Of a DNA stretch of 64,000 nt, positions 12,175 to 61,487 are shown piece after piece. The DNA comes from Xestospongia bergquistia. Taxonomy: Eukaryota > Porifera > Demospongiae > Haplosclerida > Petrosiidae. The stretch covers positions 1,798,001 to 1,862,000 of the forward strand of contig OZ014416.1 of assembly GCA_963965975.1 (NCBI GenBank), in the 5' to 3' direction. Under the pieces are notes generated by a model. That model was given only the letters and a program-made list of their open reading frames with translations, searched no databases and was not told the DNA's origin. How positions within the stretch are numbered: position 1 is the stretch's first letter; every line of letters starts with the position of its first letter. Position numbers and translations under genes: made by a program.

Positions 12175-15100
12175 ATGGCATCGTCAACTGGTTATCTACT
12201 ATTAATGTCTGCATTATTCCTTCAATGTCTTATCTCGCATTCTGTGAAGATAAAAGTTGTTGTCCGAGTACAACCCTTCCTTAATAGAATTCATCTTCAT
12301 TGTCAGGATAACAATGGCGAAGACTTAACTACTTCTGTTCAGTTTTATCGGACAAAGATGATTAATGCTCAGATTGTGACAAAGTTATTTACTAATTACA
12401 CACCAGATGGTGCTGTGGCAAAATTTAATGTTGCTCCGGAATTGGAGGGCGAGTTTAGTTGTGCAAGTAATAATAGTATGTCCAGTAACAATATTACATT
12501 AGTAGGTGAGTCTCTCTATCTCTCTCTATTTGGGCTTTTAAATTCCTCCATTCTTCCTATTACCACCTAACATTCTATTCATGACAGCCACAATTACCAC
12601 AATGACAAACACTATATGTACTTCAATTATTAATACATTGTACATCTACTGGCCAATGACAGACTAACTACCACTACTACAGTCACATAATAAAGGTTCT
12701 TATTAATATTAATAGGCTGTGATATATAGAGTTATGATAAAATGAACAATTTCTCATAGCTTTCCATATATGTCAATAATGTGTTTGTGATGTGTTGTGT
12801 CTAGTTCCCTTTGTGATGTTGTCAGTCGAACTCATTACATCAACTACAGCTGATGTTTACACATTCTCATGAACTGTGTCATATAGTATTGAAAGTATAG
12901 TACTAAAGTATACTTTATTGTATCTGAGATAATAAGGACGTGTATGTTGGTGTGATCGACTGAAACATATTGAAGTCTTCTTTGTAGATTTAAAGATGGA
13001 ACTTAGTTTTTTTTCTTAAATCAAAATTGAATAGACATCGAAGTAGTTATACTAAACTGAGCTAAATCATTTGGAAAATGCTAATCCCTCAAGTATAAAC
13101 TGACATTATTAACTGTACATAATTATACTTATTAATCTAGCTAACTGTCAACATGTAATCTTATTATGCTCATTTTTCTCGTCATGGTTACCATATTTCC
13201 ACAATTATCACTTGCATATTGCTGATCTCTCTTTGCTATACTAACCTTTCATGGACACTCTTTCACTTTAATTAAATAAATTCTACTTTATTGATCAGAA
13301 GTGTCGAGTGTGTGGTAACAACTATGTTTGGTAACATAATTACACACCTGTAGTATGACAATATGTACTGTCACAATGGGTGATTTTATTACATAAAAAT
13401 GAGCATATGCATGCTGTGACAATGACCAGAGGTGATATATATGTGTGTGTGTATGTGTCAAAGTGGGATGGACTATTGTAGTCTAACACTAGTTACACAT
13501 TTAATGTAACTAAATAAACTTGTTGTGCAAACTGTAATTGTTAGTCTCCTTTTGAGAGTGAGCTGAGTTTGCAATAGATTGTTCTAGAACTGCGATAGCT
13601 GCATATCTAATGTCCTATAGCAGACATTTTGCATACGTTATCCTACACCTGCTGATGTAAGCCTGCAATATTGTTATAACCTGTTTTAGTGGACATTAAA
13701 CTTAAGTTATAAAACAGACCAGCTGCTATAGTTTATAGTTAATTAGCTCTTATTCAAGTTGACTTCAAAGATCTTACAGTATACATATCTTAAGTTATTT
13801 GATATTCAATTTAATGTTTTCATTGTTAATTTTATGGTTTTGATTAGAAACCTATTTTTATAAAATAAATACTGAATGTAGTAGGACATTAATTTAATTA
13901 GATGTTGGTATTATTCTCTTTCTATTACAATGTCCATTGTATTTGTTATTAGTGGTTTGTCTTTGTCAACAAAACACATATGGTAGTACCTCAACTCAAC
14001 TGTAAATGTAGTGGTCTATACATGTATATAGATAGTGAACTATACATGTACACAGTTGCCAGCTGTACATGTATATAGGTAGTGAACTATACATGTACAC
14101 AGTAGCAAACTGTACATGTATATAGGTAGTGAACTATACATGTACACAGTAGCAAACTGTACATGTATATAGGTAGTGAACTATACATGTACACAGTAGC
14201 CAACTGTACATGTGTATAGGTAGTGAACTATACATGTACACAGTAGCAAACTGTACATGTATATAGGTAGTGAACTGTACATGTACACAGTAGCCTGCCA
14301 ACTGTACATGTATATAGGTAGTGAACTGTACATGTACACAGTTGCCAGCTGTACGTGTATATAGGCACAGCCTATTTTACTAAATTTCTATCAATTACTG
14401 AGTACAAAATGCACATGTACATTATTCATACAAACATGTTTATGAAACAGGTTTCACAAGCCAGTTTTCGTCATTGTCAATACTTGCAACATTCTATTTT
14501 ATTGTCTTTTCTTTTCCTCATCCCTATACAGCCTACCCTTACCTTGATTCATCTTTCACACTTCCACAAGAGTACAAAGTCCAAGTTGGTCACACCTCTT
14601 CTCCGTTACCCTGTGGTTTTGTACCAGGTGGACTAGCTAACCTGTACTATGAAGTAGAATGGTGGCGTGGTATTGTTAGACTAGACTTGAGTGGATCAAA
14701 ATATGAAATGGTGTCTAATTATTCCCTTCTCGTACATAATGCTACAATGAGAGATAATAGTGGAGGATATTATTGTCATATAAGAGTATTTAATGTGGAG
14801 GAGAATAAATGGTACAGTAATTCATCTCCTGATATCAAGTTGAATGTTTATGGTAAGAAGGAATAGATGGATGGATGGATGGATGGATGGATGGTTAGGT
14901 AGATGGATTGATGGATGGATAGATGGTTAGGTAGATGGATTGATGGATGAATAGATGGTTAGGTAGATGGATTGATGGATGAATAGATGGTTAGATAGAT
15001 GGATTGATAGATTGATAATTAATTTATAAAATGATATCAAACATTATTATTATTTTTATGGTATCATTTGGTGTGTATAAGTTACCATTGTCATTCTAAG

Positions 15101-15210
15101 CCAATCCTTGAGTTTATTTTCCTATTGTATTGTTGTATGTGGGAAATGTGTGATATTAATATGATGAATATCCTTATTATTTTAAGGTCACCTTTTATTA
15201 AATTTGATAT

Positions 15211-15263
<53 letters not shown>

Positions 15264-18200
15264 ATTCTTTCTTTCCAGGTGGCCTGTCATTAACATCTTC
15301 ATTTCAACATTTAGCACTCAAAGCTGATACATCACCATCATTCACTTGTATAGCTCAGGGTCTACCACAACCTCAAATCAAATGGTTATTAAACAATTCT
15401 CCACCTAACAGCAGCACTCAGTACACAATACAAGAGCAGGTCAGTTTAGCCATAACGTCATTACATCAACAGGTACAAGTTTAGAGTTTAGTCTGTTTAT
15501 TACCCTGATAAGTCTAGTCAAGTAACCTGATAACTCTATTCTAGTAACCTGATAACTCTGCCCCAATACTCTGATAAGTCTAGTCTAGTAACCTTATAAC
15601 TCTATTCTAATATTTGGATAAGTCTAGTCTAGTAACCTGATAACTCTATTCTAATATTCTGATAATTCTAGTCTAGTAACCTGATAACTCTATTCTAGTA
15701 ACCTGATAACTCTACCCTAATACTCTGATAAGTCTAGTCTAGTAACCTGATAACTCTATTCTAATACTCTGATAAGTCTAGTCTAGTAACCTGATAACTC
15801 TACCCTAATACTCTGATAAGTCTAGCCTGGTAATCTGATAACTCTATTCTAATACCCTGATAAGTCTAGTCTAGTAACCTGATAACTCTATTCTAATACC
15901 TTGATAAGCCTATCCTAGCACCCTGATAAGTCTAGTCTAGTACTCTGATTAGTCTATTCTAATAACTTGATAACTCTATTCTAATACCTTGATAAGTCTA
16001 GCCTGGTATCCTGATTACTCTAACCTGGAATCCTGATTACTTTAGCCTGGTATCCAATAGCTCTAGGATAACTGTGATTAATTACACTTATCTGAATATA
16101 TTTCTAATTGAGACATTATAACAAGTGATTATTACATAAATAACTGTTTTAAGTATCATTAAACAAGTTGGGTCAGTCACCTGAGTTGAGTCATATCAAA
16201 AGGTCACCCACATTACTACGAATACTACTGCCTACTGAACGAAATGTTAAACTACTTACTGATGATGTGATAGCGTGATGTAGTACTATTGTAGTTCACC
16301 TTGTTTTGATATCGGTTCACTTCCTTGTAGAGTAAGTATGTATTAATTGAGTATAGAAGCACATAAAAGGTTGTATCACTGAGATGTTTTTATTGAAAAC
16401 ACTGACTTTTAAATAATTCACCAAAAGCATCAAAACTAAAGATTGAAAAGTCAAATTTCCCAATGCTAAACTGTCTTTTGGGAAGAAGTACAATGCTGCA
16501 CAAAAAGGATATTTTGATTGTTGTTGAAATCAAAAGGTCAGAGGTCACTACTGACTAACCGTAAAAGATCTAAGTCCACACTCTATTAAGTTGTTATTAA
16601 AAGGTTGAGGTCACTCTACTGATTAGCATATATTCATTTTTTAATGTCATTGTCCACACGTACACATAGTACCAGTTAAATAAACAACCGGTCAAGTTAT
16701 TGATGCTAAAATCATACAGCTGTTATTTTTGATTAGTTAGAAAAACGTGTACAACTTTAGATCATTTACTTTTTGTGTGTCATGAACATAAACAAATGGT
16801 TAATCTGACAAGATAAACCTCATTAGTTATCATTATTGCAACCAATATCTACTGTGTATGATGATGTCTTCAATATGATATCCTGGTTCTAATTTCAAAT
16901 ATTCTTTTTCATTCTTCTCTAGGTTTCTTCATCACTCTCTGCTGTCACAGTCACCAGCACCTTCACTCTCACTAACATCAAACCAGAATCTACTGGTCGT
17001 GTGGAGTGTGTAGCATATACATCAACTGAGAATGATATCCAAGTTGATATCAAAGGAGCTACCATCGTTATATTAGGTAATATCATCCATCTATCTATCA
17101 CATCCATCTATTCATCCATTCCTCCATCATCCATTATTAGTTCATCCATCCATCCATTTAGTTATCTATCTATCTATTCATCCATTTCTCCATCTATCCA
17201 TCCATTTCCCTTAATCCCTTATTTGTTCATCCATCCATCCATCCATCTATCTATCTATCCGTTCTTCCATCTATTCATCCTTTCATATTTCTATATAGTA
17301 ATAGTTGTTATTTTCTATTGTCTCTCTCATACACCCACACACACAAACACACTAGATCATAATTTCATACCACAATTTACACCTACTGAAGATGGTGGCT
17401 TAACATTATCTGTTCAATTTCCAAATAAATTACCTGATATCTTTTTAATTCACATACAGTCAGTACAACCAAATAAAATTACTATAACTTAATCATAATA
17501 TTAATACAACTACCATACTTATTATTCATTAACTAGCAGCTGCTTTAGTTAATATATTCCCTCTCTCTTGCAGATATGTCAGTACTGTAGATCCACAACA
17601 CACATACAAAACAAATCTTACTGACTATACCTTCATTCACACTATGGCTGTCATAGATTATCGTATCCCTGATAACAAACTGCCAGCCTTTGTCTCTTTC
17701 AGAGCTCAGGTAGCTCTTGAAGTATTTGGAGTAATGGGTGACTATTCTGAATTATCAGCACAAACAGGTAAATATGTTTGTCTGTCTGTCTTTGTCTGTT
17801 TGTCCATTTGTCTGTCCTTTTACTGTTACTCCATTTTATTGTTTATCTGTCCATTTGTCTGTTGTCTGTCTGTCCATTTGTCTGTCCTTTTACTGTCTGT
17901 CCATTTGTTAATCTATCTGTCCATTTGTCTGTCATTTTTTTGTTTATCTATCCATTTGTCTGTTGTCTGTCTGTCCATTTATTTATCTATCTGTCCATTT
18001 GTCTGTCATTTTTTTGTTTATCTATCCATTTGTCTGTTGCCTGTCTGTCCATTTATTTATCTATCTGTCCATTTTTCTGTCCTTTTATTGTTTGTTCATT
18101 GCTCTAGAATTACAAACTATCCCACCAATGAACACAGTCACCACACCCACAATCACATTGGATACTCAAATCACGCCTTGTACATGTGACTCTGTTATGA

Positions 18201-18927
18201 GTTATGTTGTAATTGCCTTCTTAGGGGGAGTGGTCATCATCTTTATTTTGATTATACTAATACTTGTCTTATTCCTCTGTCTAAGAAATCGTAGAGAGTC
18301 TCTCTATAATACAGAGAGACCATTACAAGCTACAAGATTTAATAACCACAATGAGAAAATACAGCTTCATGACTATGGTGAGTATATTAATAATAAATAT
18401 CTATTTAAATCTAGATAGTTAAACTATTTTTTAAAAGTAATTTTAATATTATTAATATTAAGGTAGTGTTGAATTATTGCAATTAAAAGAATAGAAGTTT
18501 TGCTCAATTTAATTTTCCATTCTAAGAAATTTAAAATCATATAACTTTGTAAAAAAGATTGATGTTTTAAGCTACAAAAGCATTGATAAACCACACCCCT
18601 CCATATTCCAATCCATTTTGTCTTTTCCCATTTAGCCAGCCAAGATGAATTGTCAATCAGAAAAGAGAACAGCAACTCCAGCCGATCTACTGTCTCTCCC
18701 TCCAGTGATAGTCACACTTATATATCACCATCAGGTAATAGATATAGCAATGTCCCAATAGCCACATCTATTACATGTATTTTGTCATGTACAGGCTCTA
18801 GTCGTGGGCATAGTATTGATACTCGGGGAGTTAGTACCCCTAGTCGTCCTTCATCACAAGAGAGTTATTCACTAACTGAAGGACACTCAACAACAGGTTA
18901 GTTGTGTTAATATTATTAGTACGACTG

Positions 18928-18987
<60 letters not shown>

Positions 18988-19101
18988 GCCTCTCCACCTC
19001 CTCATAATGTCTATGAAAGCACTAACAGACCCATTTCCTATAAAGACAGAAAACAAGGTTCATCTATTATTATCATTGTTTGTCATTTCAGTCCATCTCT
19101 C

Positions 19102-19146
<45 letters not shown>

Positions 19147-20074
19147 TGTAGCCTCTCCACCTCCCTATGAAAACACTAACAAGCCTACTTCCCACAAAGG
19201 AAGAACACAAGGTTCATCTACATCACTCCTTGAACCTACTAAAGAGGAAGAGTCAACAATAGTTACATCTTATAATCAAAACACACCAGGTATTGCTACT
19301 GCTTTCATTAATAAAGAAAGCAAGTAATATTGTTATAGACATAAAATAGTTTTTGGCATTAAAACCAGTTCTTTACATTAATACTGAATTTGTTCTGTTT
19401 ACATGTACTCTAGTTATATTGCATGGATATAGTAATTATAGTGATGATGGTATAATGAATTTATCCCTAAAATTTGAATATTATTTCGTGTTTTATCAAT
19501 TTTCTTATTTCTAGTTGCTATTCCTAAAACTATGCCAGATGTTTCTACGTCAGCTGGATCATCTCAAACCACACCCAAAACTATGAAAACTCCATTAACA
19601 GATGATGAGTCAGAAGCCAAACAAAATCAGGCCACACCCCTTTCTCCATCTCATTCAGATCCTAGCACATTAGCTTGTCCTGAGAAGCCATCACATCCTC
19701 TTCAAGGCAAAGGAGGTCTTAGTTCTAGTATGGCCATTTCTCCCTCCATGACATCAACCCAAGAAACAAAAGTATCACCATCACTTAAAAAACAAGAACA
19801 ATTCTTACAAGGCAAAGAAGGTCATAGCACTAGTATGACCATTTCTCCTTCCACAACACCAAGCCAAGAAACTAAGGGATCACCATCACTTACAAACCAG
19901 GAACGGTTCTCACAAAGCATAAGTGTTCAGACTAGTCTGACATTTCGACAGTATACTGGCAAGGTCCCTCTTCCTGAACCAGAACCTCCTGCACCACAAA
20001 AAACTGAAAAAGATGAAGAAATCGAAAAAATGCTTGAGGAATATGAAATGGTTCAGGTGCCATCATCACCTTAA
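12175..20074 (+). CDS. IgR1: large Ig-like/FN3 type I membrane receptor, 12 exons
   Basis: Exons: 12175-12505, 14532-14852, 15279-15439, 16923-17076, 17356-17458, 17574-17767, 18108-18377, 18636-18734, 18795-18896, 18989-19057, 19152-19289, 19515-20074; they sum to 833 codons. Exon 1 gives a signal peptide (ATG with hydrophobic LLLMSALFLQ) and an N-domain whose PELEGEFSC matches the PECEGLFTC of the cluster genes. Exon 2 (residues ~111-217) is a V-like domain starting AYP with C, W and DNSGGYYC. Exons 3-4 form a canonical I-set-like domain. Exons 5-6 (~323-421) look FN3-like. Exon 7 holds the membrane span (~453-479) followed by LRNRR. The remaining ~320 residues are a Ser/Thr/Pro-rich tail with Tyr sites such as PYENT. 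Exons 10 and 11 are a tandem duplication, and exon 12 repeats a ~37-residue unit twice. The exon 5 end and exon 10 donor (GTTCAT) are weak calls. The ligand is unknown; a surface recognition or adhesion role is inferred. Confidence 0.85.
12506..14016 (+). other. First intron of IgR1, 5' part
   Basis: About 1.5 kb of AT-rich intron sequence. No conserved ORF, RNA gene or transposon end is recognised. Confidence 0.6.
14017..14365. repeat. 47-bp palindromic minisatellite in IgR1 intron 1
   Basis: About seven copies of a 47-bp unit. Each carries two ACATGTA-type palindromes (ATACATGTACAC and TGTACATGTATATAG) joined by GTAGTGAACT and AGTAGCAAAC variants. Confidence 0.93.
15483..16060. repeat. 22/44-bp minisatellite in IgR1 intron 3
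   Basis: About 13 copies of a 44-bp higher-order unit built from two related ~22-mers, such as AGTAACCTGATAACTCTATT and AATACTCTGATAAGTCTAGT. It decays toward the right end. Confidence 0.93.
16061..16922 (+). other. IgR1 intron 3, unique part
   Basis: About 860 bp of AT-rich intron between the minisatellite and the exon at 16923. Nothing recognisable beyond low-complexity runs. Confidence 0.6.
17085..17290 (+). repeat. (TCCA/TCTA)n tetranucleotide repeat
   Basis: Imperfect TCCATCCATCTATCTA-type repeats fill the start of the intron after the exon ending 17076. They are open in one frame but intronic, because exon 5 resumes the FN3-like domain at 17356. Confidence 0.85.
17785..18095 (+). repeat. 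TCTGTCCATTTG-type repeat in IgR1 intron 6
   Basis: Roughly 300 bp of imperfect units based on CTGTCCATTTGTCTGT, open in all three forward frames and giving Cys/Leu/Ser-rich false ORFs. Confidence 0.9.
18931..18984 (+). repeat. (CT)n before IgR1 exon 10
   Basis: A near-pure CT tract that ends in CTCTGTAG directly before the exon at 18989. Confidence 0.95.
19107..19146 (+). repeat. (CT)n before IgR1 exon 11
   Basis: A second CT tract that ends in CTCTTGTAG before the duplicated exon at 19152. The CT tract and the exon appear to have been copied together. Confidence 0.93.
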
Positions 20075-21012: not shown

Positions 21013-21050
<38 letters not shown>

Positions 21051-22390: not shown

Positions 22391-24627
22391 ATGGAATCTA
22401 AGTATCTGGTCATCCTTCTTGTGGTTCTTTTCTTCTATGTAGTGGCTGCTCAGCAATACTACACAATTGTGGTTGATAGACCTTGGAATAACAATTCGTT
22501 TACTTTAACCTGTAGAGACAACTCGAATAATGACTTCAATAACGCAGTGTGGTTCTTTAATGGCTCAGCTTACGACAGCAACTCGCCTTGTTTTGCCAAG
22601 ACCAACGCTACTAAAAGCGGAGCAACACTAGTTTTCATATTGGTATCAGAATGCGAAGGCTACATCCAGTGTGGAAACAGTAATGAGCTTTCAAGAAGTT
22701 ATGAGACCAACGGTGATTTTTTTTTAGTAATGTTAACTGTTTAGTATCCTAATTCAAAACAATTGTGAAAAACTTTTTCTCAACTTTTACAGCTTATCCA
22801 GAACGTACTTCTGACTACAATGGTACTCAGCAATCATTAAGAGTTGCTGCTGGTACATCCATTACTCTCCCTTGTCATGTAAGAGTGTCTGCTCTTAATG
22901 GGTACATAGTGAACTGGAGAACCTTAAATCCTCTGACTAGTGATATTGGTGTAAGAACTGAACCACATAATCCAGACTATTCTTTGACATTGACAAACTT
23001 GAAAGTATCAGAACATTCATGTAAGAAAATGATAATTATTAGGATGTAATGATTTATTGTTTGTTTCTTTTAGTAATTTACACATGTCGAGTAAGATCAC
23101 AAACTCTAGTTAGTGGTCCTACTAGTATTGATGGTCAAAAGACAAGACTTTATGTTATAGAATACAGTGAGTGTAAATAGATAGATGGACAGATAAGATC
23201 AGTAATTTATTTATTATTTATTTGTTATTCATTCAATTATAGCTCCTCCATCAATTTTACAAGTCTCTGCTCAAACTGGAACTAATGAAGTAATAGAGTT
23301 TACCTCCACAGCTACTGGAAGTAATTTAAACTTCACTTGGTTTTTGAACAATGAACAACTGAGACCAAGTGATGAACGAGTTGATGAATTATCTGGAACT
23401 ACTGGAGTTTTGGGTCTTCGAACACAGAAGTTAAACTTTAATGGACAAAGCAAGACATTAAAACTAGTCATCACTAATAAAGATGTTAATAATAGTGATC
23501 AGAGTGATTCTTATGAAGGATGGTTATTTCAAGTAAATAACACAAGTAAGGTTTGGTACATAAACCAGACAAAACCTCTACAACTGTAATAGTGTAATAT
23601 ATAGCTTCATTTTATATATGTCTATATATAATATATATAGCCATATAAATACATACATAATACACATTACATACATACATAATTATATATATAGTATACA
23701 TATACTCATACATACATATATATGTATTCTAACTATCTCCTACAAGTATAACAACTGACCATATTACAAGCTTCTAACATTGTATTTAATAGTTACTCCA
23801 CATGTTATAACAAATTTAACAAAAGATGTTGTTATGTCAGCATCTTTAAAACTGTTTTTATATTACCTATTGTTATAAAGAATACATTATTTTTAATAAA
23901 TTTTAATATTTATCCTATTTTGTTATTAGTCATTACATCCACTGAAGGACAATCTCAAACGATGACAGTTATTATACTTTCAATTGTCGTCTTTTTACTC
24001 ATTATTATTTGCTTAGTCCTTCTTGTCGTAACTCCTGTCACTGTTTACAAATATAAAAAAAACAAAAGAAAAGTCCCAAACATTCAAGTTGATAATGTCA
24101 ATGAAACTACCGACACCGGACTCTGTGTACATGTAGGAGACTCACATGATGTAGTTATAAAAAAGTCAGCTCTAACTAACTTAGATAAATTTAATAGGGC
24201 TATTATAGAGGTACTTATTGAAATTGGTAAACATGAAGAAACTGTCCAGAGCATCCAACAACGCATTCAAAAACTTATCCATCAGCTTTCAGCTCCTGTA
24301 AGACCCCCACCACCAATTCGAGCTGTTCACTCTAATAATGCAATTCCAGCTTTTGCTGATTGTCGTAGTTATCCAGTAAATATTTGTGATCTTCCTGAAT
24401 CACCAAGACCAGCTGCAAAGACAAAGAGTATCGTTTATTATAATGTGCTACAACCTATAGCAAAATTAGAGATCATACAAGATCTTAAATCTCGAGCTAA
24501 TCCGATATATGATACTACAGGAAATGAATCCAATGAACTGTTGACAACACTATTACAGTCTGAACTTCCGGAAACATATGGTAAATTTATGGAACTTTTA
24601 GAATTAAAAACTAACAATGCTTTGTAA
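22391..24627 (+). CDS. IgR2: five-exon Ig-like membrane receptor, MESKY-class N-domain, tail class A
   Basis: Exons: 22391-22712, 22793-23020, 23074-23166, 23243-23545, 23930-24627 (547 codons; a second in-frame acceptor at 23948 would give 541). Exon 1: signal peptide (LVILLVVLFFYVVAAQ) and four-Cys N-domain (LTC, SPC, SECEGYIQC). Exons 2-3: V-like domain with AYP start, LPCHV, VNW and, after the intron, IYTC. Exon 4: Ig-like domain with FTWFLN and YEGWLFQV but no cysteine. Exon 5: membrane span (VVFLLIIICLVLLVV), basic stop-transfer KYKKNKRK, a helical segment near TNLDKFNRAI, a PPPP run and the C-terminal box SELPETYGKFMELLE. It also has VYYNVL, which fits an ITIM by pattern. The N-terminal half is almost identical to IgR3, the tail to IgR4 and IgR6. 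Function is inferred: cell-surface recognition. Confidence 0.88.
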
Positions 24628-25880: not shown

Positions 25881-26762
25881 AATAAAGACAACTATCTCTT
25901 ACCTGCAGTGTCCACTATAGTGTTTTAGCTAGCATTGTGTAATTGAGATCATATGAAGAAGGGAAGGTATGCCTAACTACTGTACTATGTTTTCTGCTAA
26001 GACCATTTGACCATATAAGGAATAATAGTATGAAGTCTTTGAACAACCAACAAGGTTTTAAGACATCAGACTTATAAAGTACAATTAAACTTTGCTTAAA
26101 TATAACTTGTTCATTTTCTACAATGCTGGAGACCACACCTACACACAAATTCTGCTTTCTGGCTACTTAGTACTATTATGTGATTACTGTATAATTATTA
26201 TTAGATTACAAGCTATTCAACAACTTCCATATATGGTAAAAATAGTAAAGACTTACAAGGAACTAAATGAAGTTTGACACTATTTCTCTTCCTATAAGTG
26301 GTCTTAGTATAAAATACAACATGATATAACTAGAAATATTGTTACTCAAAAGATATGGGTAAGAAAAAGGTACAACCAAATGTAAGATCAGCATATTTTA
26401 ATACTGATTCCTTCCTATTCTCTAAACTCTAAAGATTAAAGTACATGACCTGAGGTTTGGATTGGTTCCAGTGGGTAATGTTCAAAGGTCAGACTGTCGT
26501 ATAGTCTCTAGATTTCTGTAATGATAACTATACTCTATCCGAGTTTAGAAGAGCCACCCAGACATGTGAATGTAGATTTTAAGGGAGTAATCTATTAAAC
26601 AATAGTCATAAATATTGACTATTTGATTAATGGAATATCTATTATCATAATTTAGTTATAAGATCACTTACTTGTTGTGATAGTCTTGTTTACTTGAAAT
26701 AACCATCCTTCATGATAATCACTCTGTTCATTATTATTAACATCTTTATCACTGATGACTAA
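25880..26762 (-). repeat. Inverted copy of IgR3 exon 4 end and intron 4 (pairs with ~32086-32970)
   Basis: Reverse-complement similarity to IgR3 runs from the intron into the last ~100 bp of exon 4 (26655-26762, complement of codons for TNKDVNNN and EGWLFQV). It stops abruptly at about 26762, where a forward-strand tail fragment begins. Confidence 0.85.
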
Positions 26763-27225
26763 TAAAGATAAGTTTAATGCAGCTGTTATGACCGTACTCC
26801 TACAAATTTCATAACTGTAAGATACTAGCAATAGCATCAAGCAACATATTATAATGCTTTTATCCCATTTCCTATCATCTCCCTACCAAACTCCACGCCA
26901 TCCAAAAGGCTCTCGAATTCAAACAGATGGAGGAAGTACAGAAATTGTTATGACTGATAATTGTTATAACTCAAATGAACAACATATTTATGATGAACCT
27001 ACTAACCCACTAACAAAAAATGTAGATAATGATGATCGTTATGTAACACAATACCTTATGGCCAAACTGGATTACGTACCTGAAGTTAAATGTCTTAGTA
27101 ATCCATCTTATGATACTTCTACAAATGAGCCCAATGAGTTAACAAGTCTTTTAAAAGCTAAACTTCCCAATACTTACAATAAATTTAAAGAACTTACAGA
27201 CTACCTAGGCAACTGTAGCAACTAA
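26655..27225. pseudogene. Mosaic IgR pseudogene: reversed exon 4 piece joined to a forward class B tail
   Basis: 26655-26762 is minus-strand exon 4; 26763-27225 is plus-strand tail similar to IgR3 from GATAAGTTTAATG onward. The tail has an early in-frame stop (TTTCATAA where IgR3 has TTTCACGA) and frame damage, then a long open stretch with SNPSYDTST and KAKLPNTYNKFKEL. It has no exons 1-3 and no membrane exon next to it. The junction looks like the scar of an inversion or inverted duplication. Confidence 0.85.
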
Positions 27226-29738: not shown

Positions 29739-29779
29739 TTTAAATTGCTATGTCAACTAACATGTACATATATCAGTTA

Positions 29780-29782
<3 letters not shown>

Positions 29783-29876
<94 letters not shown>
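29783..29876. repeat. (TG)47 microsatellite
   Basis: About 47 uninterrupted TG units, just right of the 64-bp minisatellite. Confidence 0.98.
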
Positions 29877-45180: not shown

Positions 45181-45219
45181 GGCAAATCTTAGGAGTTTTA
45201 ACTTCAATACACTAGCTCC

Positions 45220-45231
45220 TGGATATATTAA
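45220..45231 (-). promoter_or_regulatory. Conserved TATA-like core promoter of IgR5
   Basis: Minus-strand TTAATATATCCA at the same distance from the ATG as in IgR4 and IgR7, within conserved flanks. Confidence 0.5.
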
Positions 45232-47221: not shown

Positions 47222-49823
47222 ATGAAGTGTCATTACTCTTCTTTGATTGTGTTTGGTTTACTGCTGTTACTAAAGGTGTCCTCCATTGAGTGTCAAACAC
47301 CTCCATACTCACTGACCATAACTAATAGAGATATTAACCAACTCACTCTACAATGTACAGATGATTTTGGAAATTCAATATCTAATGCTGCGTTTTATCG
47401 TAATGGAATCTTAAGTACAAGTGATGAATGTTTCAATTCTTCAGTGAGTGTTGCCACAAACAAACTTAGGATGACTATATCTCCTGAATGTGAAGGACTG
47501 TTTACATGTGGTGGTAGCTATGGTAATGGTGTGGTTTTATCAAAACCTATAAAACTTTATGGTATGTCTCTCTTCCTCTCAGTATATACTCCAAGATAAT
47601 TACATATCTTTTTACAGCTTATCCAGAACATACTTCTGACTACAATACTACAGAGCAATTATTAAGAGCTGCTGCTGGTAGATCCATTACTCTCCCTTGT
47701 CATGTAAGAGTATCTGCTCTTGATGGGTACACAGTGAAATGGAGAGCTTTAAATCTTCTAACTGGTGAGATTGATGATAGACCTGAACCACATAATCCAG
47801 ATTATTCTTTGACATTGACAAACTTGAAAGTATCAGAAGATTCATGTAAGGATTAAGGAAATGATATTATAATGTAAGGATTTTATTGTTTGTATGTTTA
47901 GCAATTTACACATGTGGAGTGAGATCACAAACTCTAGTTAGTGGTCCTATTAGTATTGATGGTCAAAAGACAAGACTTTATGTTACAGAATACAGTGAGT
48001 ATAAATAGATGGATGGATAGATAAAATCAGTAATTTATTTATTATTTATTTGTTATTCATTCAATTATAGCTCCTCCATCAATTTTACAAGTCTCTGCTC
48101 AAACTAGAACTGATGAAGTAATAGAGTTTACCTCCACAGCTACTGGAAGTGATTTAAACTTCACTTGGTTTTTGAACAATGAACAACTGACACCAAATGA
48201 TGAACAAGTTGATGAATTATCTGAAACTACTGGAGTTTTGAGTCTTCGAACACAAAAGTTAAACTTTAATGGACAAAGCAAGAGATTAAAACTAGTCATC
48301 ACTAATAAAGATGTTAATGATAGTGATCAGAATGACTCTCATGAAGGATGGTTATTTCAAGTAAATAACACAAGTAAGATTTGGCACACAAACCATATAC
48401 ATATATACCTAAACTATATACATATAACATATATACATATAAATAAAATAATTGTTAAAATTTAATTTCTAATTTGTATCTTACATGGATGGATTATTAC
48501 GGAATCTATTATTAATATCAATTATTTACTATGATGATTAGTTGGTATGTTATATTATTACAAAGTAACAAATTATAATTAATACAAATACAATAATGTC
48601 AGCTATTAATTAGTTTGTTAAAGTAATATATTAATACTGTAATATTATATATGTATATATCTATCTATTAGCAGTTATCATAATATAAGTATACTGTCTA
48701 TGTATTAAATAACTTTAACTGACAACACACCACATTAGAAATCAGTCAATTGATATTACATTGTACTATCTACTACAAGTACTACAAACAACTGATCATA
48801 TTACAAAGCTTTTAACATATACATATATATATAATATTATATATATAAATATGTACATAGTACATATTACATAAGTACATACTTATTCATACACATATAC
48901 TCATACATATATACTTCTCCTACAAGTACTACAACAACTGACCATATTACAAAGCTTTTAATATAGTATTGTATAGTTACTCCACATGTTATAACAAATT
49001 TAACAAAATATGTTGTTATGTCAGCATCTTTAAAACTATTTTTATATTACCTATTGTTATAAAGAATAAATTATTTTTAATAATATTTAATATTTATTCT
49101 ATTTTATTATTTGTTACATCATCTGTCATTACATCCACTGAAGGACAACCTCAAACGATAGCAGTTATTATACTTTCAATTGTCGTCTGTTTACTCATTA
49201 TTATTTGCTTAGTCCTTCTTGTCGTAACTATTGTCACTGTACACAAATGTAAAAAAAACAAAAAAGAAGTCCCAAACATTCAAGTTGATAATGGCAATGA
49301 CACTACTGACAATGGACTCTCTGTACATGTAGGAGACTCACATGATGTGGTTATTAAAAAGTCAGCTCTAACTAACTTAGATAAATTTAATATGGCTATT
49401 ATGGATGTACTTATTGAAATTGGTAAACATGAAGAAACTGACTGGAACATCCAACAACGCATTCAAAAACTTATCCATCAGCTTTCAGCTCCTGCAAGAC
49501 CCCCACCACCAACTCGAGCTGTTCACTTCGATGGTGCAATTCGAGCTGTTTGTGATTCTCGTAGTCATCCAGTAAATATTCGTGATCTTACCGAATCACC
49601 AAGACCAGCTGCAAGGACAAAGAGCATCGTTTATTATAATGTACCACAACTTGTGGCAAAAGTGGAGATCACACAAGGTCTAGAATCTCAAGCTAATCCA
49701 ATACATGATACTACAGGAGATGAATCCAATGAACTGTTGACAACACTATTACAGTCTGAACTTCCAGAAACATATGGTAAATTTATGGAACTTTTAGAAT
49801 TAAAAACTAACAATGCTTTGTAA
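47222..49823 (+). CDS. IgR6: Ig-like membrane receptor, SSIECQ-class N-domain, tail class A
   Basis: Exons: 47222-47561, 47618-47845, 47902-47994, 48071-48373, 49144-49823 (547 codons). Signal peptide and N-domain ([16 protein letters not shown]) match IgR4. The V-like domain has AYPEHTSDYN, LPCHV, VKW and IYTC, with its own changes (NTTEQLLRAAAGRS). The third domain is Cys-less (FTWFLNNEQLTPNDE, HEGWLFQV). The tail is class A: membrane span, TNLDKFNMAI, PPPP and SELPETYGKFMELLE. As in IgR4, the TAG acceptor seen in IgR2 is missing; ACTGAAG before 49144 is the shared in-frame acceptor. Intron 4 is the reverse counterpart of IgR4 intron 4, so the two genes are arms of one inverted duplication. 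Confidence 0.87.
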
Positions 49824-51004: not shown

Positions 51005-53250
51005 ATGCAGTGTCATTACTCGTTTTTGATTGTATTTGCTTTACTGTTGTTACTAAAAGTGTCCTCAATTGAGTGTCAAACACCTCCATACTCACTAACC
51101 AAAACTGAAAGAGATGTTAACCAACTCACTCTACAATGTATGGGTACACTTGGAAGTATAGTGTCTAATGCTGTGTTTTATCGTAATGGAGTCTTAAATA
51201 CAAGTGATGAATGTTTCAATTCTTCAGTGAGTATTGCCACAAACAAACTTAGGTTCACTATATCTCCCAAATGTGATGGACATTATATGTGTGGTGCTAG
51301 GAATGGCAGTGGTGTTGTTTTATCAAAACCTATTACAATTTATGGTGAGTTTGTAAGTATCTATTATTCATCCATCCATCAATCTAATTTATACATCCAT
51401 TTTTGTCTATTGATCTATCCATTCAGCTTATCCAGTTAAGATAGGATCAGATCGAAACATAACTGGAGAAGTGGGCAAAAGCATTACTTTACCATGTGGC
51501 TTTGTTCACTCACCAATCAATTCATATACCACCAAATGGTTCAAAATACTAGGCAGTATGAGAGATGAGATTGCAACCTATGATGGTGAAATCCATGATC
51601 ATATTATCAACAATTTACAACTAATGGATGAGGCTTTTTATAGATGTCAAATACGTCCTAAATTTCCTTCTAGTGTATTTGATCCTTCAAATGGACCATA
51701 TCTTAATTTGACTGTCAATGAAACTTATAGTAAGTAAATTTGAAACTTAAATATATAATGATACTATTCCTTATAAGCAAATATCCTGAACAATGTCTAG
51801 ACACTCTGTATGAACAATATCATGTACAAGAGGACACAAACACACACACATACAAATACATTTGAGTTCTTTTAACTCCCTAGGATCTCCCATTATTACT
51901 ACTGGTCTGATCATTGTTAACAATTCTGATGGTTCCAGTGAACTAAGAGTAAATACTATAGGCACTAATTTACAATATCAATGGTCAATTAATAACACAG
52001 TTGTTAATGGTACCACTCAGAGAGTTGTTAAAAACGATGAGAGACATTTGAAGTTAAATGGAAGATGGAATGGAACATTGAAAGTGGAGTATTTGGTGTG
52101 GAATAATGATTACAGTGGTATCCGTCATGAGGGAAAACAAGAATTTGTTGTTAGTCCTTATTATATTGGTAAGATATCAACTGATAACTATCTGTACCTG
52201 GAAGTATGTTTCAGTATTTGTTTTATTTATATATTTTTTTGTTTATTTATTTTTAGAATGTTCTATGAAATTACTGGACTTGGAGTCACCTCAAGGAATA
52301 GCTATAATCACTATGGTGACAGTTTTGATAGTATCATTTGGTTTCAATGTTATCTTCTGTATTTTTCTTGCAAAAAAAACTTGTTGCAAAAGGAAACAAG
52401 AAGAATCTACTAATGGAGGTGATCTATCTATACCACAGGAACATCATCCATCCCTCACAACCCAACTCTCCACAATGTCTAACAGCAAAATGGTTCAATG
52501 TATTAATCTCCTACGGCAAGTTTCTGGAGAGATGAGCATTACTCTGTCAACTCCTTCAGAAAAAATGCAAGTGAAACACTCCACATCTCAAAGTTCTTCC
52601 ACTTCTTCTGAGGCCAAGCATGCAAATCCTATGGCTAATATATTAGTAGAAGTTGCTAAAACAATCTCTGAGTTTGAGCACACTGACATAGAACTTCTCA
52701 ATGGTGTTGTTATTGTATTGCAGAGTGTTACTCGTTTAGCACAACTGCGACAATGCCACACAGCACTTCGAAATATGGCAATTCAAATAATGGAACAGAT
52801 TGAACGCATAAAGTACAATGTACCTACTGCAACATTAATGAAACATTCATTATCTGATCCTGCTGTTGTTAATAAAAGACCACAACCATCTGATACTGGG
52901 TACCAAGGCTTAGAGGAACAATCCAGTTCAAAAGACCAAAGTGAAGTTTATGTGGCAGATAGTGGTGTCAATGGTCAGTAGTGTATTGTGGATGGATGGA
53001 TGAGGGAAGGAGGCTAAGATGGATGGAATAACTGTAGATAAATTATAGTGTAACAGATACATCATTTGATTTATTACATTTTGTAGATCAACTACCATTA
53101 CGTGCAATCAATTCTAAAATTCAAATGGATGACCATGAGCCTCAAGAAGAAGAAGAAGAAAGAGAACTTACAGATGAAGAGAAAGATGATCTAATGAAAC
53201 TTTTAAATGCTATGTCTAGTCAATTAGAGCCATTTTTAAAGATGGATTAA
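51005..53250 (+). CDS. IgR7: divergent Ig-like membrane receptor with unsplit V domain, tail class D
   Basis: Exons: 51005-51344, 51427-51729, 51884-52168, 52257-52973, 53087-53250 (602 codons). Exon 1 is SSIECQ class (LQC, DEC, SPKCDGHYMC). Exon 2 alone encodes a whole V-like domain (AYPVKIG, LPCGF, TKWF, AFYRC), as in IgR1, where the other genes need two exons. Exon 3 is a Cys-less Ig-like domain (LQYQWSINN). Exon 4: membrane span (ITMVTVLIVSFGFNVIFCIF), KKTCCKRK and a long tail with Ser-rich, predicted-helical segments (NILVEVAKTISEFEH) and TGYQGL, an ITIM/ITSM-like pattern. Exon 5 gives an acidic run (QEEEEERELTDEEKDD) and the end SSQLEPFLKMD. It has no LPETY box. The first exon is typical of the cluster, the rest is not, which suggests it acquired a cluster exon 1 or is an older branch. 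Confidence 0.86.
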
Positions 53251-53400
53251 TATACCTTGTGCTGATACGGAGTATATAATTATTATTAATAGATTGCAGT
53301 AGTTTAGAAGAGCTATTAATATATAATATACTTGTATTGTCATCGGGTGACATTACCATGTGATTATGTAGTCATAATATATAAATTTGAGGAATACTAC

Positions 53401-53680
53401 AATACTATTAATATACTAATACTACAATACTACTAATATACTAATACTACAATACTATTAATATACTAATACTACAATACTACTAATATACTAATACTAC
53501 AATACTATTAATATACTAATACTACAATACTATTAATATACTAATACTACAATACTACTAATATACTAATACTACAATACTATTAATATACTAATACTAC
53601 AATACTATTAATATACTAATACTACAATTCTACTAATATACTAATACTATAACATTACTAATATACTAATACTACATTCT
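53401..53680. repeat. 25-bp minisatellite, first array
   Basis: About 11 copies of 25-bp units of the form AATACTATTAATATACTAAT with C/T alternation at one place. Confidence 0.95.
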
Positions 53681-53838
53681 AGTCATTATTTCCCTACTAC
53701 AAACATCTGTCAACATATAATGACACAGTGTATCTCCATATGTGTATATAAAATAATGAAGAATGTCCCATTACTGTATATTATATAATTGAAGGAATAT
53801 TCTTTGATATTTATAACTAGTTTATCCTTTAATTTTAG

Positions 53839-54480
53839 ATGCTATGTCTAGTCAACTAAAACCATTTTTATAGACGGATTAATATACCTTGTGCTGATAA
53901 TGGTGTATATAATTATTATTAATAGATTGCAGTAGTTTAGAAGAGCTATTAATATACAATATACTTGTATTGTCATCAGGTGACATTACCATGTGAGTCA
54001 TAATATATAAATTTGAGAAATACATATACTACAATATTACTAATATATTAATACAGCAATACTAATATACCAATACTATAATACTATTAATATACTAATA
54101 CTACAATACTACTAATTTACTAATACTACAAGTCTACAATACTACTAATATACTAATACTACAATATTACTAAATACAATACTACTAATATACTAAAACT
54201 ACAATACTACTAATATACTAATACTACAATACTACTAATATACTAATACTACAATACTATTAATATACTAATACTACAATACTACTAATATACTAATACT
54301 ACAATACTATTAATATACCAATACTACAATATTACTAATATACTAATACTACAATACTATTAATATACTAATACTATAATATTACTAATATACTAATACT
54401 ATATTCTACTCATTATTTCCCTACCACAAACAGCTGTCAACATGTAATGACACAGTGTATCTCCATATGTGTATATAAAA
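53839..54480 (+). repeat. Partial duplication of the IgR7 3' end, with pseudo-exon and second minisatellite array
   Basis: 53839-53882 copies the last codons of IgR7 (reads AMSSQLKPFL then stop, with a shortened end). The following flank and minisatellite (54020-54410) parallel 53245-53690. There is no upstream exon, so this is debris of a tandem duplication. Confidence 0.85.
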
Positions 54481-55450
54481 TAAAAATAATAATAACATAA
54501 TGGGAAAGTCCCATTACTGTATATTATATAAATGAAGGATTACTTATTGATATTTATAACTAGTTTATCCTCCAGTTTGGCACTTTCAGGAGCTACCTCA
54601 ATTACTCACAAGACAGTGCATGTCTCAACATAGTAGTGGATGAACTCTGGGAAGACAGGATTTATTTTGATATTAAAGACTTCAACCTTCAATCATGAGC
54701 CCACCCTCAAATAGTAACTACCAGCCTACAACTTGTTATTGATAAAACACAAGAACATCAAAAGAGCATACCAACAACATGTCCAAAATAGAGCATGCTT
54801 CATTCTATTACTTACTTTTTTGAAGAATCTAATCCAGCTGTACCTACATGTTTATCAAGTGGGTCATGTGGTTTACATGTGTGTGTATATATATATATAT
54901 ACTATGTGTTGTTATAGTCTAAAAGTTTGGGAAAATCCACTTTATCACAAATTATTTGTATCCATGGAAACAGACATTATAAGCATAGTAATGTGAAGTG
55001 GAACATTTTACTGTTTATTTCATTGACTGGTAATGGCTTTTTTGGTGGTATTAATAATTATACTGACAAGTATTTAAATTAATGTGACTTGATATAAAGC
55101 AACATTTTAAATAATAATTATGTTATTGTCTTAAAGTTTGATGCAAACGTGAAGTCAACAATAAAGAAATTATTCATTTTCTAATGAGAATTAGACTGCA
55201 CGGCCTCCCATGATCATAAAGGATATTTCTTATAGAAAATATGTAATGAATCTTTCTATCAACTGTATGCACTAACATTCATAATAGTGTTGTTTGTTGG
55301 ATTTGTCTCATGAATATCTTTATATCAATAATTTCTATCCCATTCAAGAAAAGAAAGACACTCCCTTTTCTGTAATACTTCTGTCTGCTTGATTCCTGAA
55401 ATCATTTGCTACAATTGTGTGGGCAGATAAAGTTAGTTATAGGATTTACT
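54481..55450. other. Spacer before IgR8
   Basis: No gene recognised. It contains a short (TA)n near 54887. The CTTAATATATCC promoter block of IgR4-7 is not evident upstream of IgR8. Confidence 0.6.
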
Positions 55451-57389
55451 ATGAAGCAGTGTTGGCATATCTCTTTAATTGTGTTTGCTTTATTGTTGTT
55501 ACTAAAAGTGTCCTCCATTGAGTGTCAAACACCTCCATACTCACTAACCATAACTAATAGAGATATTAACCAACTCACTCTACAATGTATGGATGATTTT
55601 GGAAATCCAATATCTAATGCTGTGTTTTATCGTAATGGTATCTTAAATACAAGTGACGAATGTTTCAATTCTTCAGTGAGTGTTCCCACAAGCAAACTTA
55701 GGATGACTATATCTCCTGAATGTGAAGGACTGTTTACATGTGGTGGTAGCTATGGCAATGGTGTGATTTTATCAAAACCCATAACAATTTATGGTGAGTA
55801 TGTCTCTCTTCCCTTTCCTATCAGTTTATACTCCAAGATAATTACGTATCTTTTTACAGCTTATCCAGAACGTACGTCTGACTACAATGCTACTCAGCAA
55901 TCATTAAGAGTTGTAGCTGGTACATCTATTACTCTCCCTTGTCATGTACAAATATCTGCTCTTCATGGGTACACAGTGAAATGGAAAATAGAAGATCCTA
56001 TTAAAAATACACATGGTGAACATTCTGAGCCTCATAATTCAGACTATTCTTTGACATTGACAAATTTAAGTGACTTAATGGATTCTTGTAAGTATCACTA
56101 CTTTTATTCAAAGTATTATATCATCCTTTTTATAGTAATTTATACTTGTCAAGTGCAGTCTCAAATCTTTTATAATGGTCCCTATAAAATTAATGGTCAG
56201 AAGACAAAACTTTATGTTATAGAATATAGTAAGTTTAAATAGATAGATGGATGGTCTGATGGGGGATCTGATTATGACTATGACATTCATTTATAGTTTC
56301 TCCGTCAATCTTACAAATGTCTGTTCAAACTGGAACTGATGGATTAATAGACTTTAATTTAACAGCCACAGGAAGTAATTCTAATTTTAAATTCACTTGG
56401 TTTCTGAATGATAAACAATTGAAACTTGATAATGACTTAGTAGTACGTCTTGATAAATTTTCACATTTTGATATGCATACTGGATTTTTGAGTCTTGAGT
56501 TACAGAAATTGAATTTTAATGATCATATCAAGAAATTGAAAGTGGTTGCCACTAACAAAGATATTTATAATAACAATCAAAGTGATATTTATGAAGGATG
56601 GTTATTTCAAGTGAACAATACTATAGTATTAACACCAGGATCATCAAATATTACTGGTAATCATGGTATGTTAGATTACCCATCCATCTATCCATCCATT
56701 CATCTATCTGTCTATCCATCCATCCAAATATATGGCTGGCATTCATCCATCTATCCATCCATCCAGCCATCCAAATATTCATCTATCCATTCCACACATA
56801 CATTTATCTAAGTGACACATCATATTTAGTACAAATTTGTAATTAAAATATTTTACTAGCCTTTCCTTATCTATATTTAGTTAGTATATCTTGTTTTAAT
56901 ATTTATAATTAAGAATCTTAAATTTACTATTGAGAGAATGTATTGTCATATTATTTTTCTTCTTTAGATTGTGCTCTGTTCAAAGATGTCTTTGTTGTGG
57001 TGATAATAATTACAGCTGTTGTATTGTTCCTACTTTGCTGTGTCCTAACTCTTATCATTATATTCATATGCTTTAAACGATATAAGGCTAAAACAAGTTT
57101 GATGAATATACAAACATTTGCAACTGAAATGATTCGTTTCTATGCCAATCTTAATTGTCAAGAAAGGTGTGATCCAGCTGTTAAAAGGGAGATCAATAAA
57201 CTTATGAAACAGTTTCTAGATATGCAAATAGATACATTAAGTAGTCATAATCCTGTTGTAGCAGACAGCCGTCCATGTGATCAAACAACTGATGACACAA
57301 TTATATCTCATCCTGTACTAATGATTTTTTTGAGAGATAATCTTCCAGAAACATATAAAGGACTTCAAACTATCTCTGGGGACCAGTAA
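55451..57389 (+). CDS. IgR8: Ig-like membrane receptor, KIEDP-type V domain, tail class C
   Basis: Exons: 55451-55793, 55860-56087, 56136-56228, 56297-56656, 56968-57389 (481 codons). The start at 55451 ([18 protein letters not shown]) is preferred over an upstream in-frame ATG at 55406 because it puts the hydrophobic stretch near the N-terminus as in paralogues. N-domain SSIECQ class ([16 protein letters not shown]). V-like domain of KIEDP type, closest to IgR5. The third domain is Cys-less, of a type shared only with IgR9 ([18 protein letters not shown], then TPGSSN). Exon 5: DCALFKDV, membrane span with [15 protein letters not shown], a probable helix ([19 protein letters not shown]) and the end [15 protein letters not shown]4 to the 3' flank is nearly identical to IgR9. 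Confidence 0.87.
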
Positions 57390-58127: not shown

Positions 58128-58240
58128 ATGCAGTGTCATTGAGTTGTTTTGATTGTGTATGTGGATGGGTCTGATTTTGAAGTTTGTTGTAATGGTATAA
58201 CAACCTTGGTTCACTATGTCTCGTAAAAGTGATAAGTTAC
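58128..58240 (+). pseudogene. Relic of an IgR exon 1
   Basis: ATGCAGTGTCATT followed by TTTTGATTGTGTATG matches the signal-peptide start of IgR7/IgR9. Downstream, TGTAATGG and TTCACTATGTCTC match pieces of the N-domain coding sequence, with deletions and no reading frame. Confidence 0.6.
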
Positions 58241-59297: not shown

Positions 59298-59309
59298 TAT
59301 ATATAAAAG
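59298..59309 (+). promoter_or_regulatory. TATA box of IgR9
   Basis: GTATATATAAAA lies ~50 bp before the ATG at 59357, the position used by TATA-like elements of the other cluster genes, but with a different, more canonical sequence. Confidence 0.6.
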
Positions 59310-59356
59310 CAAGCAAATCTAGTGTTAGTCGAAGTGTTGAGCTCCTGTGATATATC

Positions 59357-61487
59357 ATGCAGTGTCCTTTGATTGTGTATGCTTTATTGTTGTTTCTAAA
59401 AGTATCCTCCATCGAGTGTCAAACATCTCTTTACTTTCTGACCACAACTAATAGAATGTCAAATAATACACTTACTCTTCAATGCAAAGATGAATCTGGA
59501 AATCCAGTATCTAATGCTGTGTTTTATCGTAATGGAGTCTTAAATACAAGTGATGAATGTTTCAATTCTTCAGTTAGTGTTGCCACAAACAAACTTCGGT
59601 TCACTATATCTCCTGAATGTGAAGGACATTATATGTGTGGTACTAGGAGTGGTAATGGTGTTGTTTTATCAAAACCTATACCCATTTTTGGTGAGTTTGT
59701 AAGTAACCTTCCTAGTCCAAGAAATATATATAACATTACTTTATTTTTTACAGCTTATCCAGAACGTAATTCTGACTACAATGCTACTAAACAATCATTA
59801 AGAGTTGTAGCTGGTACATCTATTACTCTCCCTTGTCATGTAAGAGTATCTGCTCTTGATGGGTACATAGTAGACTGGAGAACAATAAATTCACGTCATC
59901 AAAGGGGTAAAAGAATTGAGCCCTATAATTCAGACTATTCTTTGACGTTGACAAATTTGGATGCATCAAAAAACTCATGTAAGTAATAGAATTGATAATA
60001 GCATTGCACTTATTATTTTTAGTAACTTATATATGTCGTGTACGATCTAAAAAGTTTGTATCTGGTTCGTTTAAGATTATTGGTCAAGTAACACGTCTTT
60101 TTGTTTTGGAATACAGTAAGCCATGGATTGATAAATGGAGGATAATTAGAAGGATGAGTGGATGGTTGATTGTATGGATGGATGAATGGGTAATTCATTA
60201 ATAATGTACTTGTTAATTTTATAGTTCCTCCGTCAATTTTACAAATGTCTGTTCAAACTGGAACTGATGGATTAATAGACTTTAATTTAACAGCTACAGG
60301 AAGTAATTCTAATTTTAAATTCACTTGGTTTTTGAATGATAAACAATTGAAACTTGATAATGAGTTAGTAGTACGTCTTGATAAATTTTCACATTTTGAT
60401 ATGCATACTGGTTTTTTGAGTCTTGAGTTACAGAAATTGAATTTTAATGATCATATCAAGAAATTGAAAGTGGTTGCCACTAACAAAGATATTTATAATA
60501 ACAATCAAAGTGATTTTTATGAAGGATGGTTATTTCAAGTGAACAACACCATAGTATTAACACCAGGATCATCAAATACTACTGGTAATCATGGTAGGTT
60601 AGATTACCCATCCATCTATCAATCCATTCATCCATCTATCCATCCATCCATCCATCCAAATAATGGCTGGCATTCATCCATCTATCCATTCATCCAAATA
60701 ATGGCTGGCATTCATCCATCTATCCATCCATCCAAATAATGGCTGGCATTCATCCATCTATCCATTCATCCAAATAATGGCTGGCATTCATCCATCTATC
60801 CATCCATCCAAATAATGGCTGGCATTCATCCATCTATCCATCCATCCTTCCATCCATTCATCCATCCATATATTAATCTATCCATTCCACACATACATTT
60901 ATCTAAGTGACACATCATATTTAGTACAAATTTGTAATTAAAATATTTTACTAGCCTTTCCTTATCTGTGTTTAGTTAGTATATTTTGTTTTAATATTTA
61001 TAATTAAGAATATTAAATTTACTATTGAAAGAATGTATTGTCATATTATTTTTCTTCCTTAGATTGTGCTCTGCTCAAAGATGTCTTTGTTGTAGTGATA
61101 ATAATTATAGCTGTTGTATTGTTCCTACTTTGCTGTGTCCAAACTCTTATCATTATATTCATATGCTTTAAACGATACAAGGCTAAAACAAGTTTGATGA
61201 ATATACAAACATTTGCAACTGAAATGATTCGTTTCTATGCCAATCTTAATTGTCAAGAAAGCTGTGATCCAGCTGTTAAAAGGGAGATCAATAAACTTAT
61301 GAAACAGTTTCTAGATATGCAAATAGATACATTAAGTAGTCATAATCCTGTTGACGATATTGACGGCTGTTCACACAATCAAATAACCAATGACACAATT
61401 ACATCTCATCCTGTTTTTGTGAATTTTTTGAGAGATAATCTTCCAGAAACATATAAAGGACTTCAAACTATCTCTGGGGACCAGTAA
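59357..61487 (+). CDS. IgR9: Ig-like membrane receptor, standard V domain, tail class C
   Basis: Exons: 59357-59690, 59754-59978, 60023-60115, 60225-60584, 61063-61487 (478 codons). Exon 1: short signal peptide (MQCPLIVYALLLFLKVSS) and an N-domain with LQC, DEC, SPECEGHYMC. V-like domain: AYPERNSDYN, LPCHV, VDWRT, IC in YICRV after the intron; it belongs with the IgR2/3/4/6 type, not with its neighbour IgR8. The third domain, membrane span and tail are almost identical to IgR8 ([39 protein letters not shown]); the tails differ between the helix and the C-terminal box. This is the clearest case of mixed ancestry within one gene. Surface recognition is inferred. Confidence 0.88.
60600..60870 (+). 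repeat. TCCATCCA repeat with 60-62-bp higher-order units in IgR9 intron 4
   Basis: AATAATGGCTGGCATTCATC recurs five times in a TCCA/TCTA background. IgR8 has the same intron with fewer units (56680-56795), so the array has expanded here. Confidence 0.9.

Follow-up and report, generated by a model that had tools for sequence, protein, structure and literature searches.

The allorecognition complex (ARC) of Hydractinia is described, in the parts of two reports on which we draw (PMC3276163, PMC11067881), as a cluster of single-pass immunoglobulin superfamily (IgSF) genes with a variable V-like domain, linked donor loci and pseudogenes. Here we analyze a 64,000-nucleotide window from the sponge Xestospongia bergquistia (C6:1798001-1862000, where C6 is contig OZ014416.1) and report a cluster of related receptor genes of similar build, searched for throughout a genome of 146.46 Mb in 21 contigs. 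Gene conversion or unequal crossing over has exchanged domain-sized pieces between neighboring genes of this cluster, some of the breaks falling at exon borders, and the mosaicism of the exons for the N, V and third domains is the main new result. On our best reading, the locus would be a germline-diversified cluster of recognition receptors built like the Hydractinia Alr genes, a likeness of build only, drawn from descriptions of the complex. As in Hydractinia, related type I, single-pass IgSF genes are clustered in one interval, here as 13 units on C6, and broken copies lie in the same interval; the V-type domain is variable, here in a stretch after the core tryptophan and as seen among paralogues only; and where the Hydractinia loci show evidence of acting as sequence donors to each other, we find conflicting module trees, uneven synonymous divergence (dS) and sharp identity breaks. 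Unlike in Alr, the immunoregulatory-like motifs of the tails are not above shuffled counts, the tails fall into four groups left separate by hhalign, and positive selection is not established in this comparison of paralogues. Topic searches of open-licence literature, made without these proteins' names or sequences, returned no such locus apart from the Hydractinia complex in the portions of text that they covered.

Vertebrate paired receptors (KIR, LILR, NITR) also combine tandem IgSF genes, similar ectodomains on different tails, broken copies and gene conversion. The sponge locus resembles them in each of these respects, but shows neither an excess of immunoreceptor tyrosine-based inhibitory or activation motifs (ITIM, ITAM) nor a charged residue in the membrane-span core. 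Among sponges, aggregation factors are Calx-beta domain proteins, unlike the Ig-type receptors here, and an Ig-domain receptor tyrosine kinase of Geodia cydonium is reportedly polymorphic. In the published excerpts at hand, aggregation factor genes are named as a candidate for non-self recognition in sponges (PMC5450542) and the Geodia kinase is stated to carry Ig-like domains (PMC12018476). The latter shares with our receptors an Ig-like ectodomain on a membrane protein, but no kinase domain was matched in the eight of 12 intact models scanned whole with Pfam; nor was any Calx-beta domain among those eight.

Receptor units and the mosaicism of their exons

An earlier note on this stretch had described nine related receptor genes ending at 61487, and all nine indeed have open models with an ATG start, a terminal stop and no internal stop (g1, g2, g4, g5, g7, g8, g9, g10, g11). 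The right-hand bound does not hold, since a scan of 80 kb to the left and 120 kb to the right of the window with profiles of four receptor modules places four further units directly to the right of it. This brings the total to 13 related units in ~71 kb, 12 of them intact and one (g13) with an in-frame stop; at the profile cut-off these flanks yielded no other unit, only a weak N-like match of 17.8 bits on the minus strand of the left flank (window coordinate -11746 to -11522). The core receptor, as judged from its sequence, likely consists of three Ig-like domains (D1, the N domain; D2, the V domain; and D3, the third), a membrane span and a tail, the status of D3 as an Ig domain being likewise likely. 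The units and remnants are, in window coordinates:

12175-20074, plus strand: g1, a distant and longer relative at the cluster edge, with 12 exons (11/11 introns GT-AG) and, in order, an N domain, a V-like domain, an I-set domain, a further extracellular stretch, a membrane span and a 349-residue tail
22391-24627, plus strand: g2, receptor with tail T2 (Pfam Ig_3, E 7.2e-8); exons 22391-22712 (leader and N), 22793-23020 and 23074-23166 (V), 23243-23545 (third domain), 23930-24627 (membrane span and tail T2)
26672-27214: broken copy, a third-domain piece (minus strand) beside a T5 tail piece (plus strand), 93% and 91% to g4
31015-36220, plus strand: g4, receptor with a g2-like ectodomain, tail class T5 and a last intron of 3.3 kb
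33571-35194, plus strand: pieces of a hAT-type transposase, lying in the last intron of g4, a gene otherwise intact; the piece at 34649-35194 matches Dimer_Tnp_hAT (E 4.3e-18)
38353-40959, minus strand: g5, receptor with tail T2; last acceptor uncertain
42916-43102, plus strand: broken T5 tail piece (73%, E 9e-29)
43361-45180, minus strand: g7, receptor with the short tail T7
47222-49823, plus strand: g8, receptor with tail T2; last acceptor uncertain
51005-52981, plus strand: g9, receptor with a g5-type N domain, V in a single uninterrupted exon, a different third domain and tail T8
55451-57389, plus strand: g10, receptor with tail T9
58199-58233, plus strand: possible and very short N-exon relic (E 4e-4)
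59357-61487, plus strand: g11, receptor with tail T9
62071-62155, plus strand: broken N-exon piece (78%, E 3e-12)
66059-68848, right of the window: g12
69548 to ~73.8 kb, right of the window: g13, with an in-frame stop in the V exon; model without the last exons
74132-76808, right of the window: g14
78701-83588, right of the window: g15

Compared module by module, these genes are related to one another in conflicting ways. Identity in N, V, D3 and tail is 91, 89, 87 and 29% for g2/g4, which thus carry a similar ectodomain type on strongly different tails, 36, 92, 90 and 83% for g2/g5, 77, 28, 26 and 14% for g5/g9, 85, 88, 51 and 36% for g7/g10, and 75, 62, 97 and 88% for g10/g11. Per-module trees of 11 genes conflict among the N, V and D3 exons: the N alignment costs the other trees 319-376 log units, the V alignment costs the N tree 446 and the D3 tree 37, and the D3 alignment costs the N tree 525 and the V tree 42, with the approximately unbiased (AU) test rejecting the other two trees in each of the three alignments (p <= 0.003). 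The tail tree survives the test on the D3 alignment (p 0.31); that tree is itself doubtful, since several of the tail classes cannot be aligned.

Identity breaks were mapped along the DNA for the three pairs g2/g4, g10/g11 and g9/g14. In g2/g4 identity drops at 23543, two bases ahead of the end of the D3 exon, to ~36-63% beyond, and in g10/g11 it climbs from ~70% to 96-100% near the start of that exon. For g9/g14, blocks of 60 columns show 91-100% identity from a point within the N exon onward and throughout V, then 91-98% across D3 and 50-91% over the tail. The dS values of this pair are uneven (N 0.39, V 0.008, D3 0.05, tail 0.64), as would be expected from these sequences after recent conversion of one part.

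One locus, open frames and a three-domain ectodomain

The family is confined to this locus, apart from fragments on two further contigs and weak Ig matches of a generic kind. Whole-genome queries with g5, g9, g15 and a composite of g10 with the g4 tail, whose match counts are lower bounds, fell on C6 inside the cluster in at least 39 of 40, 18 of 20, 23 of 29 and 38 of 39 matches, respectively. The off-locus relatives are a T5-tail piece on C3 and an N-plus-V piece with stops on C2, while six of the 29 g15 matches are distant Ig-type ones on C5 and C10 (E 8e-5 to 6e-3), in stretches that, where read, contain tandem two-Ig exons. The edge gene g1 is without a close copy: its matches, at least 30, comprise 12 to the gene itself, one each to the g2 and g4 N exons and 16 weak Ig ones at other places in the genome. 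A genome-wide family was also considered and rejected, as eight V-set loci resolved, on the plus strand only, into five with Ig-type frames of other proteins (L002, L003, L004, L006 and L007, of which L006 also has an EGF-like frame) and three without.

The exon models, built from genomic sequence, follow one plan in the eight core receptors (g2, g4, g5, g7, g8, g9, g10, g11), with leader and N domain in exon 1, then the V exons, one third-domain exon and one exon for span and tail. All 31 of their introns are in phase 1 and 29 of 31 are GT-AG, the last acceptors of g5 and g8 being placeholders in the models; in-frame AG sites further upstream in these two genes would, if used as the last acceptor, add a hydrophobic stretch ahead of the membrane span. 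In seven of the eight, an intron splits the V-type domain just ahead of its last Y-x-C; in g9, V is uninterrupted. When the observed differences were placed randomly on the coding sequence, the frame survived in 8 of 2000 simulations of g5/g8 and in 0, 1, 0 and 0 of 2000 for four other gene pairs; because random placement so nearly always breaks the frame, the open frames of the receptor genes look to be kept by selection. As a separate observation, g10 can be read without a stop from N to the end of V, both introns included (55400-56242), as can g7 (44386-45255), and intron-retaining forms of these two would therefore be translatable.

Several structural claims of the earlier note could be refined on these models. 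Signal peptides, assigned from hydrophobic N-termini and previously given to all nine genes, pass the hydropathy cut-off in seven of the nine window proteins but not in the other two, and in seven of all 12 intact ones. The description of nine alike genes suits the eight core receptors but not g1, which is distant and longer, with an N domain 26% identical to that of g5, an I-set domain (E 4e-10) and its 349-residue tail. The count of at least five broken copies survives as five residual DNA matches in the window, but these lie at only four places, the shortest spanning 35 bases.

The N domain had been called unusual, and this view must be abandoned: a nine-member D1 profile against PDB sequences finds Fc receptor-like protein 5 (E 3.6e-11), its best match, and titin (7e-6), which rules out a novel fold, with weaker matches to JAM-1 and Fc receptors (E 0.005-0.03) and Pfam Ig_2 in four of nine members (best 8.9e-5; the g5 domain by itself does not match). 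The core-tryptophan position of D1 holds Trp in g2 and g4 and Phe in the other seven window sequences, and all nine except g1 have two additional D1 cysteines. D2 gives Ig_3 and V-set matches in the whole-protein scans, over at least one cut-off in most proteins scanned, and an Ig model exceeds its curated cut-off in seven of eight different proteins. The V-like domain once reported for all nine is upheld for most of those scanned, but g9 falls below the cut-off and in g1 the domain is an alignment to the family, without a Pfam match above cut-off. The D2 profile also matches adhesion proteins such as contactin, Dscam and CAR. D3 keeps the core Trp and has neither canonical Ig cysteine; an I-set match, weak, appears in three of seven members scanned, and against PDB no match was better than E 0.64.

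Six tail classes (T2, T5, T7, T8, T9, T15) were compared with hhalign. Homology links T2 to T5 (P 98.6%, 36% identity), an 18-residue C-terminus is common to T7 and T9 (P 91%), and no other pair is linked (P 0.05 to 16%); because only these two pairs are joined, we count four groups, namely T2/T5, T7/T9, T8 and T15. One N type (73-92% identical) sits on tails T2, T7, T8 and T9. By eye, the C-termini of T2, T5, T7 and T9 are alike (PxTYxxΦ), and hhalign joins only T7/T9 there. A tail profile found no convincing relative of known structure, the best match being an engineered cytochrome trimer (E 1.4e-4) that is not credible.

A proposed recognition role and its alternatives

Nonsynonymous and synonymous change was compared among the receptor genes (rates dN and dS; proportions pN and pS). 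The 19-codon stretch of V after the core Trp has, in seven genes, a pN of 0.363 versus 0.124 elsewhere and a dN/dS of 1.06 versus 0.52, and estimates for this loop, from paralogues only, range from 0.82 to 1.06; the pattern fits a loop that has retained old divergence as the sequence on either side of it was homogenized. Group dN/dS is 0.58 and 0.33 in N, 0.75 and 0.58 in V, 0.49 and 0.16 in D3, and 1.00 and 0.67 in the tail, and 1 lies outside the interval only for the two groups of N and for one of D3, each of which has a value below 1. Single pairs exceed 1 in V (g5/g8, 1.88) and D3 (g2/g8, 1.51), and g9/g14 reaches 3.6 in V (confidence interval 1.12-6.03), on seven changes and as one of many comparisons. 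With group values no higher than 1.00, a bootstrap of pN minus pS for the V stretch that spans zero, and seven changes in the pair with the highest value, positive selection is not established.

A number of results weigh against a recognition cluster. There is no significant nonsynonymous excess among the paralogues (group dN/dS 0.16 to 1.00), pS is also raised in the V stretch (0.348 versus 0.220), and the stretch's pN minus pS ranks only 67th, 14th and 13th of 109 placements in three gene sets. The Shimodaira-Hasegawa (SH) test falls just short of rejecting V versus D3 (p 0.053 and 0.054), and in g9/g14, one of the three pairs mapped, the break falls inside an exon. At only 29% identity, the tails of g2 and g4 nevertheless remain homologous (T2/T5), and motif counts in 12 tails, given without a significance value, are 4 versus 3.0 in shuffled tails for ITIM, 0 versus 0.1 for ITAM and 15 versus 12.3 for YxxPhi. 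The g5 ectodomain, as a single sequence against PDB, has no Ig relative below E 0.39. Finally, Ig domains are abundant and clustered elsewhere in this genome, with runs on C2, C3, C5, C7, C10 and C12; because tandem Ig genes are so common, drift in a duplicated adhesion family could look similar, and an Ig cluster alone is therefore not a sign of allorecognition.

It is such drift that the first alternative invokes, namely an ordinary lineage-specific cell-adhesion family evolving under relaxed constraint and recurrent gene conversion, without recognition polymorphism. Group dN/dS mostly between 0.3 and 1, the many other tandem Ig genes and the matches of the V profile to adhesion proteins would all suit it, but the change peak in the V stretch and the conflicting module histories exceed the obvious expectation of relaxed drift, and we regard this account as somewhat unlikely. 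An allorecognition complex proper, in which one or more genes decide fusion or rejection by variable same-to-same binding, as Alr1 and Alr2 do in Hydractinia, would be consistent with the Hydractinia-like build and with the single locus (39/40 g5 matches on C6); given tail motifs close to shuffled counts, positive selection that is not established and other Ig clusters available in the genome as candidates, it is a candidate function but probably not the correct description. Slightly less probable, in our view, are innate immune or symbiont receptors of the paired type, diversified against microbes and passing signals from similar ectodomains to different outputs. Similar ectodomains on strongly different tails (g2 versus g4), a single N type on tail classes left unlinked by hhalign (e.g., T2, T8 and T9) and a D1 profile that matches Fc-receptor-type Ig domains point that way, but the g2 and g4 tails are diverged yet homologous, and the vertebrate form of pairing is absent here, because there is no ITAM, ITIMs are near chance and the span cores inspected are uncharged. 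The most far-reaching proposal is that of a histocompatibility complex, in an early-branching animal, whose neighboring genes trade modules and so reassort binding (N, V) separately from signal (six tail classes without ITAM/ITIM logic); it appears improbable, and is made less likely because the clearest tail change (g2/g4) joins homologous classes.

We lean, if only slightly, toward a tandemly duplicated, single-locus family of type I membrane receptors for variable cell-surface recognition. The comparable recognition system proposed in the earlier note is thus retained in part, on the strength of a single-locus type I IgSF cluster that includes broken copies, varies locally in the V domain and shows exchange between paralogues, but it has to be set against tail motifs near shuffled counts, the lack of solid positive selection and the existence of other tandem Ig clusters; the label of signalling-type tails, for its part, does not stand at these motif counts. 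If the receptors do serve variable recognition, D2, through its variable stretch after the core Trp, would meet a variable partner, which could be a microbe, a linked ligand or another cell's copy of the receptor itself; the tail classes may send recognition into different outputs, and reshuffling together with homogenization could keep generating new combinations between individuals. Should haplotypes prove highly polymorphic, the locus would offer a defined 71-kb interval for testing self/non-self recognition and would show that new receptors can arise in the germline when ectodomains and tails are swapped as modules, while tail classes without a clear signalling motif could reveal new downstream partners.

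Genomic setting and further observations

The left neighbor of the cluster is an ARFGEF-type gene, with Sec7-like_HDS matches at window positions 5504-5800. G+C content of the window is 28-35% in 4-kb blocks, and tandem repeats lie between receptor genes at 53298-54550, 29211-29800 and 62827-63221, with units of 25, 64 and 20 bases, respectively.

With regard to the tails and spans, an ITIM/ITAM signalling reading was dropped at counts this close to those of shuffled tails. NPxY (2 versus 0.3) and PxxP (20 versus 10.7) are above the shuffles, and no charged residue lies in the hydrophobic core of the receptor membrane spans inspected.

Linkage to an aggregation-factor-like locus was looked for and not found, the Calx-beta clusters lying on C8, C12, C13, C4 and C15 and the only Calx-beta match on C6 being sub-threshold and 1 Mb away from the receptor cluster. 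Three of these clusters are at C8:354890-373870, C12:6.82-6.85 Mb and C13:1.06-1.10 Mb.

Ig_2 candidates number 1531 genome-wide, of which 150 were scored. Regularly spaced tandem Ig matches with equal or near-equal scores occur at C10:4705033-4721055, C5:2.65-2.75 Mb and C2:6.396-6.413 Mb. Also on C2, two tandem genes (~4147-6778 within the stretch C2:5738001-5748000) adjoin a broken copy of the receptor family, and in the first of them a single V-like Ig domain is accompanied by a membrane span and by a tail that contains NPIYDEV.

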